36,706 nt of DNA from assembly GCA_024400995.1 (NCBI GenBank), contig JAKSLU010000014.1, forward strand, positions 1 through 36,706, written 5' to 3'. Made by a program: the position numbers and the translations under genes. This DNA comes from Bacteroidaceae bacterium (GTDB taxonomy: Bacteria; Bacteroidota; Bacteroidia; Bacteroidales; Bacteroidaceae). Under the pieces are notes generated by a model. It made no database searches. It saw only the letters and a program-made list of their open reading frames with translations, and was not told the DNA's origin. Below, in pieces: positions 8,316 through 36,339 of this stretch (the stretch's first letter is position 1; each line of letters starts with the position of its first letter).

Positions 8316-8391
8316 TGGGGTGTTCTATCAATTCACCAAACATAGAACATGCCCCTTATATGAGTAGATAAACAAATAATAGAATACCCCA
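8316..8391. mobile_element. Short MITE-like element (76 bp) between the two M6 genes
   Basis: The left end TGGGGTGTTCTATCAATTC (8316-8334) and the reverse complement of the right end (8373-8391) match at 15 of 19 positions. Both are flanked by TA (8314-8315 and 8392-8393), consistent with a TA target-site duplication. A third, inward copy of the end motif at 8342-8355 pairs with the left end as a hairpin with a two-base bulge. The ends match those of the 191-bp element at 34288-34478. No transposase is present. The right end is three bases from the start codon of the second M6 gene, so the element now forms most of that gene's leader. Confidence 0.6.
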
Positions 8392-32421: not shown

Positions 32422-34266
32422 TTATCGGCAGAGCGTGATGCGGTGGTTGCGGATGACTAGCCCCTTGGCAGAGGCGGAGCGTGAGAGCTGGCGGCCTTGC
32501 AGGTCGTATGCTACATGGTCAGGCTGGGCAGTGGCTGTGGTCACAGCCCCGATGCCCTCCGTGAAGTAGCCCTGCATGCGGGCACTACCAGCGTTGAGGA
32601 CAAAGTTGTTCTGCATCACCTTTTTGTCGATGAGGTGCACGATGGCCACCACGTCGCAGTTGGCCAGGACGACCTCCTTGTTTATGCTCTGAGGTTCGTA
32701 GCTCACGTTGTAGGAATAGCTGTCGCCCTCCACGATGTCGAGCTTGTCACCAGCGGGGTTGATGTTGAAGTAGTTGCGTATCACACCGTTGTGGCGGTAC
32801 TTGTCCTTGAGGTCAGCGGGAGCGCTGGGATCGTCGAGGCCCATCTGATAGTTGTTGCCGTCCTTGCCCGAGGAGCCCGTAGGCTTGATGTCGTTCTCGA
32901 TGAGGTAGCAGCTGAGGTAGATGTCCTTGGTCTCCTGTAGGAGGTAGCGGTTGATGCTGCCAGACACCTGAACGCTCATGCTGCCATCCTGGAGAGTGGG
33001 GATGACTGTGACCTCTGCCAGTGCGGGGAAGGAGGCTGCCTCGATGATAGCCTCGGAGTAGGGGTCGGTCTCGGCCAGCTTGGCTGACTGCAGCACCGAC
33101 TGTGAGCCGCTCAGCATACGGCGGTCGTACATGACGGCGGGGTTGTAGCTGTCGCCCTCAAAGAGGTAGAGCAACTCCAGGTCTGGCGACTTGGTGAAGC
33201 GATCGTTCACAAAGCCAGCGTGGTGAGCCACGTAGAGGCAGGGGTGTCCCTGCTCGCGGTACTCCTCCATGGCACGGTCGAGATAGTAGGCCATGAAGGG
33301 GCAGTTGACGCAGGCCTGTGAGGTGAACTCCTCCACCACAGGCACGCGCTCGTAGGCATCGAGTGCCACGTAGAGCACACCCTGGGTGGGCATGGTGGGT
33401 GAGGCCGTCTGGCTGTTCACCTTGGTGACGCTGAGCGTAAGGCTCTCGCTCATGCCCTCATGCGAGGGCGCAACGAGCTGATACGGGATGGCCACTCCAT
33501 CGTAGGGTGCCAGCTCCTCGGGGAGCGTAACGCTATAGGGTGTAACGACGCCATAGGCATCGCGTCCCTCGAACTCTACCGACGTGATGGGGTGGGACGA
33601 AAGGTTGCGCACATAGAGATTGCAGCTGAAGGGCTTGGAGGGCTGCACCATCTTGGTCTTCACGCCACTGAAGGCCACGAGGGCACTGTTCTGCAGGTTG
33701 TTGATAGCCTCAGCACCCTCGATGATAGCCTGTACGAGCAGAGTGCCTCGGTTGAGGTAGTTCTGGTAGCCCTCACGCGCAGGGTTGATGCAACAGGCTG
33801 TGGGGATGTTGGCGTGAGCATAGCTGGCCACGGGGTGGGGGGCTCCTATCGTCTCATACACCTGGTAGCCCACGTAGTTCTTGCCCTCGGCGATGGCTAC
33901 GGGCTGCGCAAAGCGTATCTCGTTCCAGCCCAGCACAAAGTTGTCCACCTGCTTGGCCACGGGCTCGTTGGCGGCATCGCCCTGACGGACCTGTATGAGG
34001 GAACGCTGCTGGGAACGCTGCTTGTAGTCATGAGTGACGTAGAAGCGTACGCCCGCAATCTGTGCCCCAGCCTCGTGGAGCTTCATGACGAGCGGATCTA
34101 CCTCCGTGTCGAGGCAGATGGCCGCCTCCATAAAGTTGTTCTTGCCCGTACCGATGGCAGTCACATCGGTAGGCTCCACCTGCATGGGGCAGTAGCCGTA
34201 GTAACTCTGTGCTACGGCCAGCAGCTGGGTGCATAGGAGCAGGAGCGTGAGAGATATGTGTTTCAT
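32422..34266 (-). CDS. Secreted Omp28-like protein with CxxC thioredoxin-like motif
   Basis: 614 residues with a signal peptide (MKHISLTLLLLCTQLLAVA). A beta-rich N-terminal half is followed by an Omp28/thioredoxin-like domain: VVEEFTSQACVNCPFMAYYL, with the redox-type pair Cys319-Cys322. The C-terminus carries a short AYDLQGRQLS ... KGLVIRNHRITLCR segment resembling a sorting or anchoring domain, shared with its upstream paralogue and the second M6 protease. Likely location is periplasm or outer surface. The 191-bp element at 34288-34478 now separates it from the paralogue; before insertion its ATG would have overlapped the paralogue's TGA. Confidence 0.82.
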   Translation of the reverse strand: MKHISLTLLLLCTQLLAVAQSYYGYCPMQVEPTDVTAIGTGKNNFMEAAICLDTEVDPLVMKLHEAGAQIAGVRFYVTHDYKQRSQQRSLIQVRQGDAANEPVAKQVDNFVLGWNEIRFAQPVAIAEGKNYVGYQVYETIGAPHPVASYAHANIPTACCINPAREGYQNYLNRGTLLVQAIIEGAEAINNLQNSALVAFSGVKTKMVQPSKPFSCNLYVRNLSSHPITSVEFEGRDAYGVVTPYSVTLPEELAPYDGVAIPYQLVAPSHEGMSESLTLSVTKVNSQTASPTMPTQGVLYVALDAYERVPVVEEFTSQACVNCPFMAYYLDRAMEEYREQGHPCLYVAHHAGFVNDRFTKSPDLELLYLFEGDSYNPAVMYDRRMLSGSQSVLQSAKLAETDPYSEAIIEAASFPALAEVTVIPTLQDGSMSVQVSGSINRYLLQETKDIYLSCYLIENDIKPTGSSGKDGNNYQMGLDDPSAPADLKDKYRHNGVIRNYFNINPAGDKLDIVEGDSYSYNVSYEPQSINKEVVLANCDVVAIVHLIDKKVMQNNFVLNAGSARMQGYFTEGIGAVTTATAQPDHVAYDLQGRQLSRSASAKGLVIRNHRITLCR

Positions 34267-34287
34267 CGTGTGATGGGGATGGGCTTA

Positions 34288-34478
34288 AGGGGTCTTCTAT
34301 TAATTCGTTAATCAGTTCATACAAGGGTAATGTCCTATGCTTGGCCGCTTTTGGCCTTTATCTCGTATCTTTCTCTCTTTCACTCAGTCACGTAGCCCGC
34401 TACGCTCCTTCCTTCAAGAGAGAAATCTACTTCGCTAAAGCCTCAAAATCGACTCAAGCGAATTAATAGAACACCCCT
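34288..34478. mobile_element. 191-bp MITE-like element inserted between Omp28-like paralogues
   Basis: The terminal inverted repeats are 20 bp with one mismatch: left 34288-34307, right 34459-34478, whose reverse complement is AGGGGTGTTCTATTAATTCG. Both sides carry TA (34286-34287 and 34479-34480), a TA duplication as made by IS630/Tc1-type transposases (inference). The interior has nested palindromes: TTTCTCTCTT/AAGAGAGAAA (34370-34379, 34416-34425) around CGTAGC/GCTACG (34391-34404). It encodes no transposase. The right end is translated into the last residues of the upstream paralogue, whose stop (34435-34437) lies inside the element. Confidence 0.8.
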
Positions 34479-36339
34479 TAATAATCTTCTGGCCATTGCG
34501 GATCATGATGCCCTTGGCTGCATGTCCCTGGAGTTGACGGCCCTGGAGGTCATAGGCACGTCCGGTCGTGCAGGAGAGGGTGGTGGTACGGATGCCCTCG
34601 GGAGTGGGGAATGCCTGCTCCGTAGAGTTGATCACGTTGCCGCGCCACTTGCCGTTCTTCTGAGGATTGAGGGTGAGATAGGCCAGCACGCGCATGTCCT
34701 GCACCTTCCAGTCCTCCTCGAGCTCAAAGTCATAGGTCTTGGAGTATGTGCCCTCTTCAGTGATGACGTCGCCATAGAGAGGGGTGAGGCGGTAGCGGCC
34801 CACGTTGTTGTGGGTTACATGACCATAGACCTGACTTCCATCGTCATCACCCTTGCGGCGCACCTTCTTGTCGTCTTTCTTGTCGTCCTGCTTTACCTCG
34901 TCGATGAGCTGCGAGTCGCTGTCCACCTTGTCCTCAACGAGAACTACCACGAGGCCCAGTTCGTCGCTCTCGGCGAGAATGTTCTCAGCCACCTCGCCGC
35001 TCACGGTGATCTGGCCCTTGAGTGTCTGCTCATCGTAGTCGATCTCTGCCGTCACGCTGGCAAAGGTGGGCAGCTCCAGGGCAGCCTCGTAGAGAGGACC
35101 TACGAACTGGGGCATGACTACGCCCTGAGCCCAAAGGGCGTAGTTGCAGATAGCGTCGGACGAGTAGGTGACCATCTGCGTGCGGTCGATCATGAAGGTG
35201 GGGACGTATATCTTGGAGGAGTCCTTGTCGCATAGGTGCAGGAGCATCTCCAGTTCCTCGTCGTCGCCCGTCATGAACTGGTCCTCAAAGTGGCAGGAGA
35301 GCAGCGACATGCGGTCGCGGTAGCTGTCGATGCCGGGTGCGAGATAGTCGTCGTAGTACTTGACGCAGTTCCAGGCGTTCTCACTCTCTATCCACTCCAC
35401 GAGAGGACGGCGTGTGTAGCGTTCAGCTACATCGGCGGGAACGGCGGTCTGATAGTATGTGATGGTGCCCTTGAGGCGGTTGTCGGTGTCGTTAACCTTG
35501 GTTATGCTCACGCTGTGCTCACCCGTGCCGAGGTTACACACGGGAACGGCGATGTTGGCCTTTTTGCCCTTCAGTATGGCTGTCTTGAGGGGGATGGCCT
35601 TCTCTTCGCTCTTCTCGCCCAGGGTATAGGTCAGCGTGAGAGAGTTGATAGAGGACATGCCCTCGTTGCAGAGAGTGAGCAGTCCGTCACTGGTCTCTCC
35701 CTGAGTAGCAATAGGGTAGCGACGCAGGTTCTGCAGGCTGGCAATGTTGCCGTACTCGCTGGTCTCGCCCTCAACGATGAGTTGGATGGAGAGTGTGCCG
35801 CTTTCGCTGAGATCCTCCCAGAGCAGCTGGCCGCTCTCATCGTTCACGCCCTCGCGGGAGAGGAAGGCAGAGCCGGCCTGGTTGTGGGGGTACATGTTGC
35901 TCACACCCCATGAACCAGCCTTGAGCGTGCACTGATAGCCCACGTAGATGTGGTCAAAGTCCTCCGCAATGGTGATGGGAGTCTTGAAATTTACAGTGTT
36001 CCACGAGCCGTTGTTCCTGTCGTAGAGAGTGCCGGTGCCGGTAGCCAGGTCCTCTCCGTTCAGCTCCGTGCGAGCAAAGGTGGTCGCCTTGGTGCTGGCG
36101 GTGGGGTCGGCCCATCCTATGCGTAGTCCCTTGATGTTAGCGCCGATGTAGGGAGCCACCATATCGCGGGTCACGAGGATGGCCGCGCCGATCTTGGTGT
36201 CCTTGTCGAGTCCACCAAATCCGTCGTACGAATAGACGTAGTCGTAGTCGATGGGGTAACCTACATAGAGGGTGCCCTTGGCTGCATGTGCGCTCAGGCA
36301 GAGGCACATAATGAACAGGATAGCGTAGAGTTTCTTCAT
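34435..36339 (-). CDS. Secreted Omp28-like paralogue with degenerate CxxC and element-derived C-terminus
   Basis: 634 residues; the start at 36337-36339 opens the signal peptide (MKKLYAILFIMCLCLSAHA), 30 bases inside the longest frame. It has the same architecture as the downstream 614-residue protein (N-terminal beta region with IYVGYQ, central LVEWIESENAWNCVKYYDDY, C-terminal AYDLQGRQLQ). The redox pair is lost: Ala322-Trp-Asn-Cys325 replaces Cys-x-x-Cys. A charged insert, KQDDKKDDKKVRRKGDDDG, interrupts the later part. The final residues GCSINSLESILRL are encoded by the inserted element; the predicted ancestral ending is PIPITR. A strong promoter lies at 36367-36398. Confidence 0.8.
   Translation of the reverse strand: MKKLYAILFIMCLCLSAHAAKGTLYVGYPIDYDYVYSYDGFGGLDKDTKIGAAILVTRDMVAPYIGANIKGLRIGWADPTASTKATTFARTELNGEDLATGTGTLYDRNNGSWNTVNFKTPITIAEDFDHIYVGYQCTLKAGSWGVSNMYPHNQAGSAFLSREGVNDESGQLLWEDLSESGTLSIQLIVEGETSEYGNIASLQNLRRYPIATQGETSDGLLTLCNEGMSSINSLTLTYTLGEKSEEKAIPLKTAILKGKKANIAVPVCNLGTGEHSVSITKVNDTDNRLKGTITYYQTAVPADVAERYTRRPLVEWIESENAWNCVKYYDDYLAPGIDSYRDRMSLLSCHFEDQFMTGDDEELEMLLHLCDKDSSKIYVPTFMIDRTQMVTYSSDAICNYALWAQGVVMPQFVGPLYEAALELPTFASVTAEIDYDEQTLKGQITVSGEVAENILAESDELGLVVVLVEDKVDSDSQLIDEVKQDDKKDDKKVRRKGDDDGSQVYGHVTHNNVGRYRLTPLYGDVITEEGTYSKTYDFELEEDWKVQDMRVLAYLTLNPQKNGKWRGNVINSTEQAFPTPEGIRTTTLSCTTGRAYDLQGRQLQGHAAKGIMIRNGQKIIKGCSINSLESILRL

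Follow-up and report, generated by a model that had tools for sequence, protein, structure and literature searches.

Positions 1 to 36,706 of contig JAKSLU010000014.1 (Bacteroidaceae bacterium, assembly GCA_024400995.1), the whole stretch analysed here and called the window below, carry a short repeat with inverted ends beside two genes for Omp28-related proteins, P0001 and P0002. As judged from its copies, its ends and its duplicated target, the repeat is a non-autonomous DNA transposon lying across the 3′ end of P0001, whose predicted product now ends in residues read from the element. In the superfamily to which it belongs, the defining feature appears to be less the ends than an inner hairpin of about 126 nucleotides (nt), which most likely has been kept as a structured RNA. 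As the best overall explanation, we consider it probable that the repeat is a 189-bp non-autonomous DNA transposon whose superfamily is defined by this RNA-like hairpin. An earlier note, made from the letters of the window, had described a MITE-like insertion (MITE, miniature inverted-repeat transposable element) at this place. That observation as a whole is real and far beyond chance, with its boundaries corrected as described below; the inner covarying hairpin and its family-wide spread were missing from it.

The mobile element and its copies

The element occupies 34289..34477, and its sense strand, taken as the better-folding one from the copies and the fold, is the minus strand, on which both flanking genes also lie. 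Its terminal inverted repeats (TIRs), GGGGTCTTCTATTAATTCG at 34289..34307 (plus strand) and GGGGTGTTCTATTAATTCG at 34459..34477 (minus strand, read from 34477 down to 34459), agree at 18 of 19 positions when compared by eye. In inverted orientation the ends follow the consensus GGGGT[C/G]TTCTATTAATTCG, the element beginning with GGGG and finishing with CCCC. An exact 4-bp repeat, TTAA, flanks it on the left (34285..34288) and on the right (34478..34481) as a target-site duplication (TSD), and the list of open reading frames (ORFs) contains none of 60 or more amino acids wholly inside it. The inverted ends seen by the earlier note thus stand, with 20 bp corrected to 19 bp and the boundaries to those of a 189-bp element, whereas the TA that it took for the target is merely part of TTAA, since the copies in the own genome and in the genus carry 4-bp repeats. 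The repeat is short, non-coding and multi-copy, with TIRs and a TSD, in agreement with its designation as MITE-like.

The search for further copies that the earlier note had proposed gave nine matches at seven distinct places in the own genome, the window's own included (G000, a draft of 1.53 Mb in 78 contigs, 68% complete). Four of the copies are full-length, one with an internal insertion, and their 4-bp repeats are TTAA, TAAA, TATA and TTAT. The nearest copy, on contig C36, differs at 2 of 189 bases, and the next nearest at 22. The C36 copy and the exact target duplication support the precise and fairly recent insertion that had been proposed. Another copy, on contig C39 (L003 / L237 6203-6391), sits on the stop codon of its upstream gene; there, the first G of the element completes a TAG, so that the upstream protein seems unchanged. 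The AT-rich targets may steer insertions toward gene ends.

Element matches were present in 12 of the 61 genomes searched, own included, and all 12 belong to one genus. The end motif occurred in 25 of 58 genomes of this genus, with as many as 134 forward and 137 reverse occurrences in a single draft, whereas the reversed control pattern occurred in 0 of 58. From eleven genus genomes, own included, 64 loci were tried; both ends were located in 62, one of which lacks a full left flank, leaving 61 copies with full flanks. An exact 4-bp repeat flanks 35 of these 61, as compared with a mean of 5.4 and a maximum of 14 in 2000 permutations, and the commonest duplications are TTAA, TAAA, TATA, TTAT and TCAA. 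This excess of exact repeats settles that the element is mobile and that its target is 4 bp. The window's element had no match in a plasmid search, nor had one relative in a phage search.

An inner structured unit within different ends

The conserved structured unit lies at 34336..34460 on the minus strand and scores 124.8 bits with the covariance model R1, the window copy being one of the 25 training sequences of this model. Its apical hairpin, GCGTAG-CGGG-CTACGT, is at 34390..34405 (minus strand; alignments A1 and A2). The predicted fold of the sense strand has an energy of -76 kcal/mol (z -8.2), versus -55.6 (z -6.2) for the antisense strand, and the sense strand is the more stably folded one in 60 of 62 copies, whose orientation was fixed by BLAST similarity and not by energy. 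In alignment A1, built from 28 type I elements, 21 of 38 consensus pairs show compensatory double changes, and in alignment A2, built from 25 inner units (17 with type I-like ends and 8 with other ends), 30 of 33 pairs do. Paired cells make up 92.2% of A2, versus 69.4% after shuffling, and its covariation amounts to 0.618, versus 0.195 in shuffled and 0.07-0.17 in slid controls, with 0 of 500 shuffles reaching the observed value. Compensatory changes therefore exceed both kinds of control, as would be expected of a conserved structured RNA.

Below the CGGG or CGAG loop and its 6-bp stem, most copies contain two GA/GA internal loops around a 2-bp stem, the inner one in 20/25, 24/29 and 13/20 units and the outer one in 19/25, 25/29 and 15/20. 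G-U cells outnumber A-C cells by 79:13 in A2, 82:11 in A3 and 48:7 in A4. Together, the G-U excess and the retained mismatched loops are not expected of a purely double-stranded or arm-repaired palindrome. Rfam gave no match in the window, and the element locus had none even with E allowed up to 5; ten other loci together yielded three, each to a miRNA model and short of that model's gathering score.

Among 399 Bacteroidaceae genomes, each contributing no more than 8 scored matches, R1 matches were found in 148, belonging to 20 of 30 genera. A phylum-wide draw of 395 genomes contained them in two, G094 and the own genome, which are both members of the family, and the superfamily is thus confined to the Bacteroidaceae as far as sampled. 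The exact 25-base apical sequence occurs in at least 118 stretches of species genomes, several of them inside quite different ends, such as TTAGTGATGG..., GGAATGATGAAAAAATAA, TAAGTAGGTGGTC... and AGGTAACATC.... A second sample, from the family search, comprised 47 loci, some of them from the window's genus; type I-like ends were present at 34, with an exact 4-bp repeat at 23 of the 34. In G094, all eight copies fetched have the ends GAAACTGTTTTGAATTT and 3-bp TAA or TTA repeats. These copies (L404, L406, L408, L410-L414) are 192 bp long and at least seven of the eight are nearly identical, which suggests a recent burst of an element with a different end type and the same predicted inner fold. 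Type III copies have ends of their own and 3-bp TAA/TTA repeats in five of six distinct copies, L267 and L379 appearing to be one place. A copy from another genus (L377, genome G239) shows 91.5% identity, over 189 bp, with a copy from the window's genus, and for a copy from Prevotella sp. P5-108 (L292) the identity with one from that genus is 92.6%; such values across genera suggest horizontal movement between them.

The unit is not a constant part of the mobile DNA. Six short copies of 79-123 bp have type I ends and exact repeats and give no R1 match, as do two further short copies of 75 and 98 bp. Since short copies lacking the unit carry duplications, the unit is apparently not needed for integration, for which the ends alone seem enough. 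The window itself holds a 74-bp relic of the same end type at 8317..8390, between two co-directional genes and with no R1 match; its flanks, TTAT and ATAT, form no exact repeat.

The gene pair and the altered C-terminus

The upstream gene, P0001, encodes an Omp28-type protein (34435..36339, minus strand; PF11551, E 7e-11) when an internal ATG is taken as its start, the listed ORF extending to 36369 from a TTG. Its downstream paralogue P0002 (32422..34266, minus strand) is Omp28-like, with 32.5 bits to PF11551 against a cut-off of 34.9 and 48 bits to NF033782, under the cut-off of 150. Orthologues of P0001 (E <= 1e-60) were found in 21 of the 58 genomes of the genus, the own genome among them. 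A protein-based scan of a collection of genome contigs with P0001 gave 49 pattern matches, of which 0 were confirmed.

Past the motif NGQKIIK, P0001 continues with 13 residues encoded by the element, GCSINSLESILRL, and a TAG stop (34435..34476, minus strand). The earlier note had likewise read 13 residues from the element and a stop inside it, and the distance of about 170 bases that it gave between this stop and the ATG of P0002 is 168 nt. The 13-residue tail is considered new because the upstream protein of relatives stops one or two residues past a motif of the NG-x-K-x-x type, shared with P0001, in 14 of the 19 with readable ends (the alignment of tails shows seven of the 14, with row L052 one residue short). 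Of the remaining five, four end in K[VI]AF (L045, L046, L047 and L060) and one in RVIKRMVK. The earlier note had called the C-terminal motif sorting-like. No sorting-domain profile of Pfam or NCBIfam matched either tail or two relatives' tails at E up to 10, leaving the claim unconfirmed and the link to type IX secretion, which we presume from the look of the P0001 tail, a resemblance.

Scripted excision of 34289-34477 and one TTAA, 193 bp in all, yielded DNA identical to that obtained in the earlier note. The junction reads ...ATTATTAAGCCC..., the form that an empty site would take (none from the same species was found), and the restored frame ends in KIIKPIPITR, followed by a TGA that overlaps the ATG of P0002 as ATGA, so that the restoration is reproduced exactly. 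The further claim that this overlap is hard to get by chance proved a weak argument, since 358 of 752 called genes start with ATGA; simulated read-in from 18-29 nt upstream of called starts created the overlap in 951 of 9024 trials (10.5%). In addition, the proposed former coupling of the paralogues found no support: the same pair is adjacent in 20 relative loci, none of which has an R1 match, and the ATGA overlap occurs in 0 of the 19 with a readable junction, where start candidates lie 2 to 249 nt past the stop. The restored P0001 would extend six residues past the usual end of its relatives, and a stop may therefore have disappeared before the element arrived. G009, the nearest relative (51% identity), has a degraded pair at locus L041, where the P0001 frame shifts and runs into the P0002 homologue. 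Taken together, the insertion and the new C-terminus proposed by the earlier note hold, and the TA target and the strength of the ATGA argument do not.

The sense strand of the element lies in the presumed P0001-P0002 mRNA, so that local effects of the insertion are likely; these could be an altered C-terminus, a rod-like RNA beyond the 3′ end of P0001 and more independent translation of P0002. On the antisense strand of the element, a terminator-like hairpin, GGCCGCTTTTGGCC, is followed by a T-rich tail (34343-34356, plus strand), one such structure being found versus 0.6 expected.

A proposed role of the hairpin, and known repeats

In the explanation that we prefer, a DDE-type transposase acting in trans would have moved the element, and the hairpin RNA would come from read-through of a neighbouring gene or from a short transcript of its own. 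This RNA could take the shape of a stable rod that acts by protection, by pausing or as a target of RNase cleavage, and the rod might soften or regulate the effect of each insertion, or help the element to persist.

Several observations weigh against this explanation. The copies are related, and the 21 and 30 doubly changed pairs are not independent events; the structure of A2 was derived from A2 itself on the sense strand, a choice that already favours G-U over A-C, and A3 and A4 were fitted to the R1 model. The 8 units with other ends and one type I-like unit entered A2 through an exact 25-mer search, so that the identity of the apical hairpin is due to selection, which is not the case for the outer stems. 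E-values are only approximate for a model of a hairpin, and even the antisense strand of the window scores 33.6 bits (E 6e-5). The opposite strand folds better in 2 of the 62 copies, the third, lower GA/GA loop of the window recurs in only 9/25, 9/29 and 4/20 units, and a variant group has GC/AA as its inner loop. The genomic setting of the units was also assessed: 82 R1 matches in 60 long stretches were reduced to 70 by leaving out 7 opposite-strand duplicates, 2 cut, 2 weak and one of 67.9 bits (L197), and the surrounding ORFs were taken from a simple longest-ORF caller. Two of the 70 lie inside called ORFs, 44 between co-directional, 9 between divergent and 7 between convergent genes, and 8 at edges. 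The 44 comprise 27 in sense and 17 in antisense orientation, and the classes look similar to the background gaps (248 tandem, 63 convergent and 62 divergent); thus, the fold is not clearly tied to the direction of neighbouring genes. Finally, the search for a cognate transposon around PF01609 and PF13701 transposases, made in 13 genomes, gave none.

Other searches for the mover had the same outcome. Pairs of element ends revealed no cognate transposon in six further genomes, nor, among the matches listed, in a complete genome with two mismatches allowed or in three viral-contig scans. Such absence is weak evidence, because draft genomes tend to lose repeats. The IS1380 (PF13701) and PF01609 elements found have no type I end pair as their own ends and were rejected as cognate; the names IS1380 and IS5 / IS1182-type for PF13701 and PF01609 elements are our presumed assignments. 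Ten proteins beside solo ends were rejected as transposases because they matched no transposase family, one having a phage integrase domain and one no match. A 718-bp look-alike on two viral contigs, flanked by a TATA repeat that we take as chance, contains a single long ORF of 234 codons, not transposase-like as judged without a profile search. One complete transposon with a PF01609 ORF of 566 codons, the ends GAGGGTGTGTCAAAATAGGCAC and a TAAT duplication was seen in G028 (L176, 607-2456); its TIR, GAGGGTGTGTCAAAATAGG, and its TSD resemble the ends of the element in style only.

A bolder version, to which we give limited credence, is that the structured, strand-specific RNA-like module itself is the unit of selection. 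It would have been taken up by several transposition systems, with their different terminal repeats and their 3-bp and 4-bp duplications, or would have outlived changes of them, in at least 20 genera of one gut bacterial family. In this version it would possibly act as a trans-acting multi-copy small RNA and would not be the by-product of a palindromic transposon.

Template switching at quasi-palindromes can correct one arm of a hairpin by the other. The element might thus be a common type of MITE, its hairpin being only what is left of an imperfect palindrome, with compensatory changes arising from such arm-to-arm correction and shared descent and with no role as RNA. The short copies lacking the unit and the unclear preference for gene orientation agree with this, as does the statement, in the accessible part of PMC2229807, that long stem-loops are usual in bacterial MITEs. 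We nevertheless hold it to be unlikely: arm correction should remove mismatches, yet the GA/GA loops persist across genera; G-U and A-C cells should be equal in number, which they are not in A2 on the strand from which its structure was derived; and one inner unit within different ends is not predicted.

Equally compatible with a strand-specific fold that shows no clear preference for gene direction is a hairpin that raises transposition in the form of single-stranded DNA, during replication or excision for instance. Tandem G-A pairs form in DNA too. Against such a role, which seems to us quite improbable, integration has also occurred for unit-free copies of 75-123 bp whose ends are the same and whose duplications match, and the unit is common to systems with different ends and duplication lengths. 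That the metagenome-assembled genome was misjoined at a repeat is highly implausible, even for a draft of 78 contigs at 68% completeness, in which repeats often break contigs, since the element lies inside a 36.7-kb contig, between paralogues that are adjacent in 20 relative loci, with an exact TTAA on both sides.

The preferred explanation, a transposon superfamily with an RNA-like inner hairpin, can be set beside several known repeats, which are compared here as far as the accessible parts of the cited sources describe them. NEMIS / Correia repeats of Neisseria are likewise small and TIR-flanked, some are fused to ORFs, and their transcribed hairpins are proposed RNase III targets in neighbouring mRNAs (PMC2229807). 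In contrast to their 24-bp TIR with a terminal TA motif (PMC2229807), the element has several TIR types and 4-bp or 3-bp AT-rich duplications, and its inner hairpin is kept across 20 genera of another phylum. The element was assigned to neither Correia/NEMIS nor ERIC, because in place of a terminal TA motif it has GGGG...CCCC ends and 4-bp, or 3-bp TAA/TTA, duplications. ERIC / RU-1 and YPAL / RU-2 of enterobacteria share the length of 100-200 bp, a long hairpin and a mostly intergenic location, and ERIC and YPAL sometimes add residues to host proteins (PMC2229807, PMC2759123); as described there, they have other end motifs, and no conserved unit within different ends is reported. The transcripts of NEMIS, ERIC and YPAL form long stem-loops (PMC2229807, PMC2759123). 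QMITE2 of Coxiella burnetii is similar in its length of about 190 bp and its TIRs, and an in-frame insertion presumably adds 33 C-terminal residues in one strain; its 7-9 bp repeats and unrelated host differ, and no covarying inner unit is reported in that part of the source (PMC5896051).

Closer to the host, PINSR is a short non-coding repeat amplified in Prevotella (P. intermedia/nigrescens), a genus that also holds one type I copy, L292. PINSR is reported to lack terminal inverted repeats and to differ from MITEs (PMC4755523), so that the element, which has TIRs, is not PINSR. A MITE of Porphyromonas gingivalis is an example from the same order, Bacteroidales, and differs by description in containing a minisatellite (PMC4596501). 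The accessible part of a paper on stem-loop families (PMC2267715) gave no match for the host names or for MITE terms, and no published description of the element or its hairpin was found in the literature searched, which covers few subscription journals.

In the genus of the window and beyond, the picture that emerges is a MITE superfamily with a conserved RNA-like core, which we liken, by analogy, to the structured small mobile repeats of other phyla. MITEs are usually viewed as a pair of transposon ends around a dispensable middle; in these elements, the middle is a covarying, strand-specific fold common to differently ended copies across a gut bacterial family, and the window copy is a clean case of such an element giving a predicted protein a new C-terminus. 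Should the fold prove to work as an RNA, these elements would scatter many RNA structures over intergenic regions, which would explain a recurrent unannotated layer of structure in 3′ untranslated and intergenic regions. The main departures from the known repeats lie in the length of the target, in the host and, above all, in the inner fold kept within different ends.

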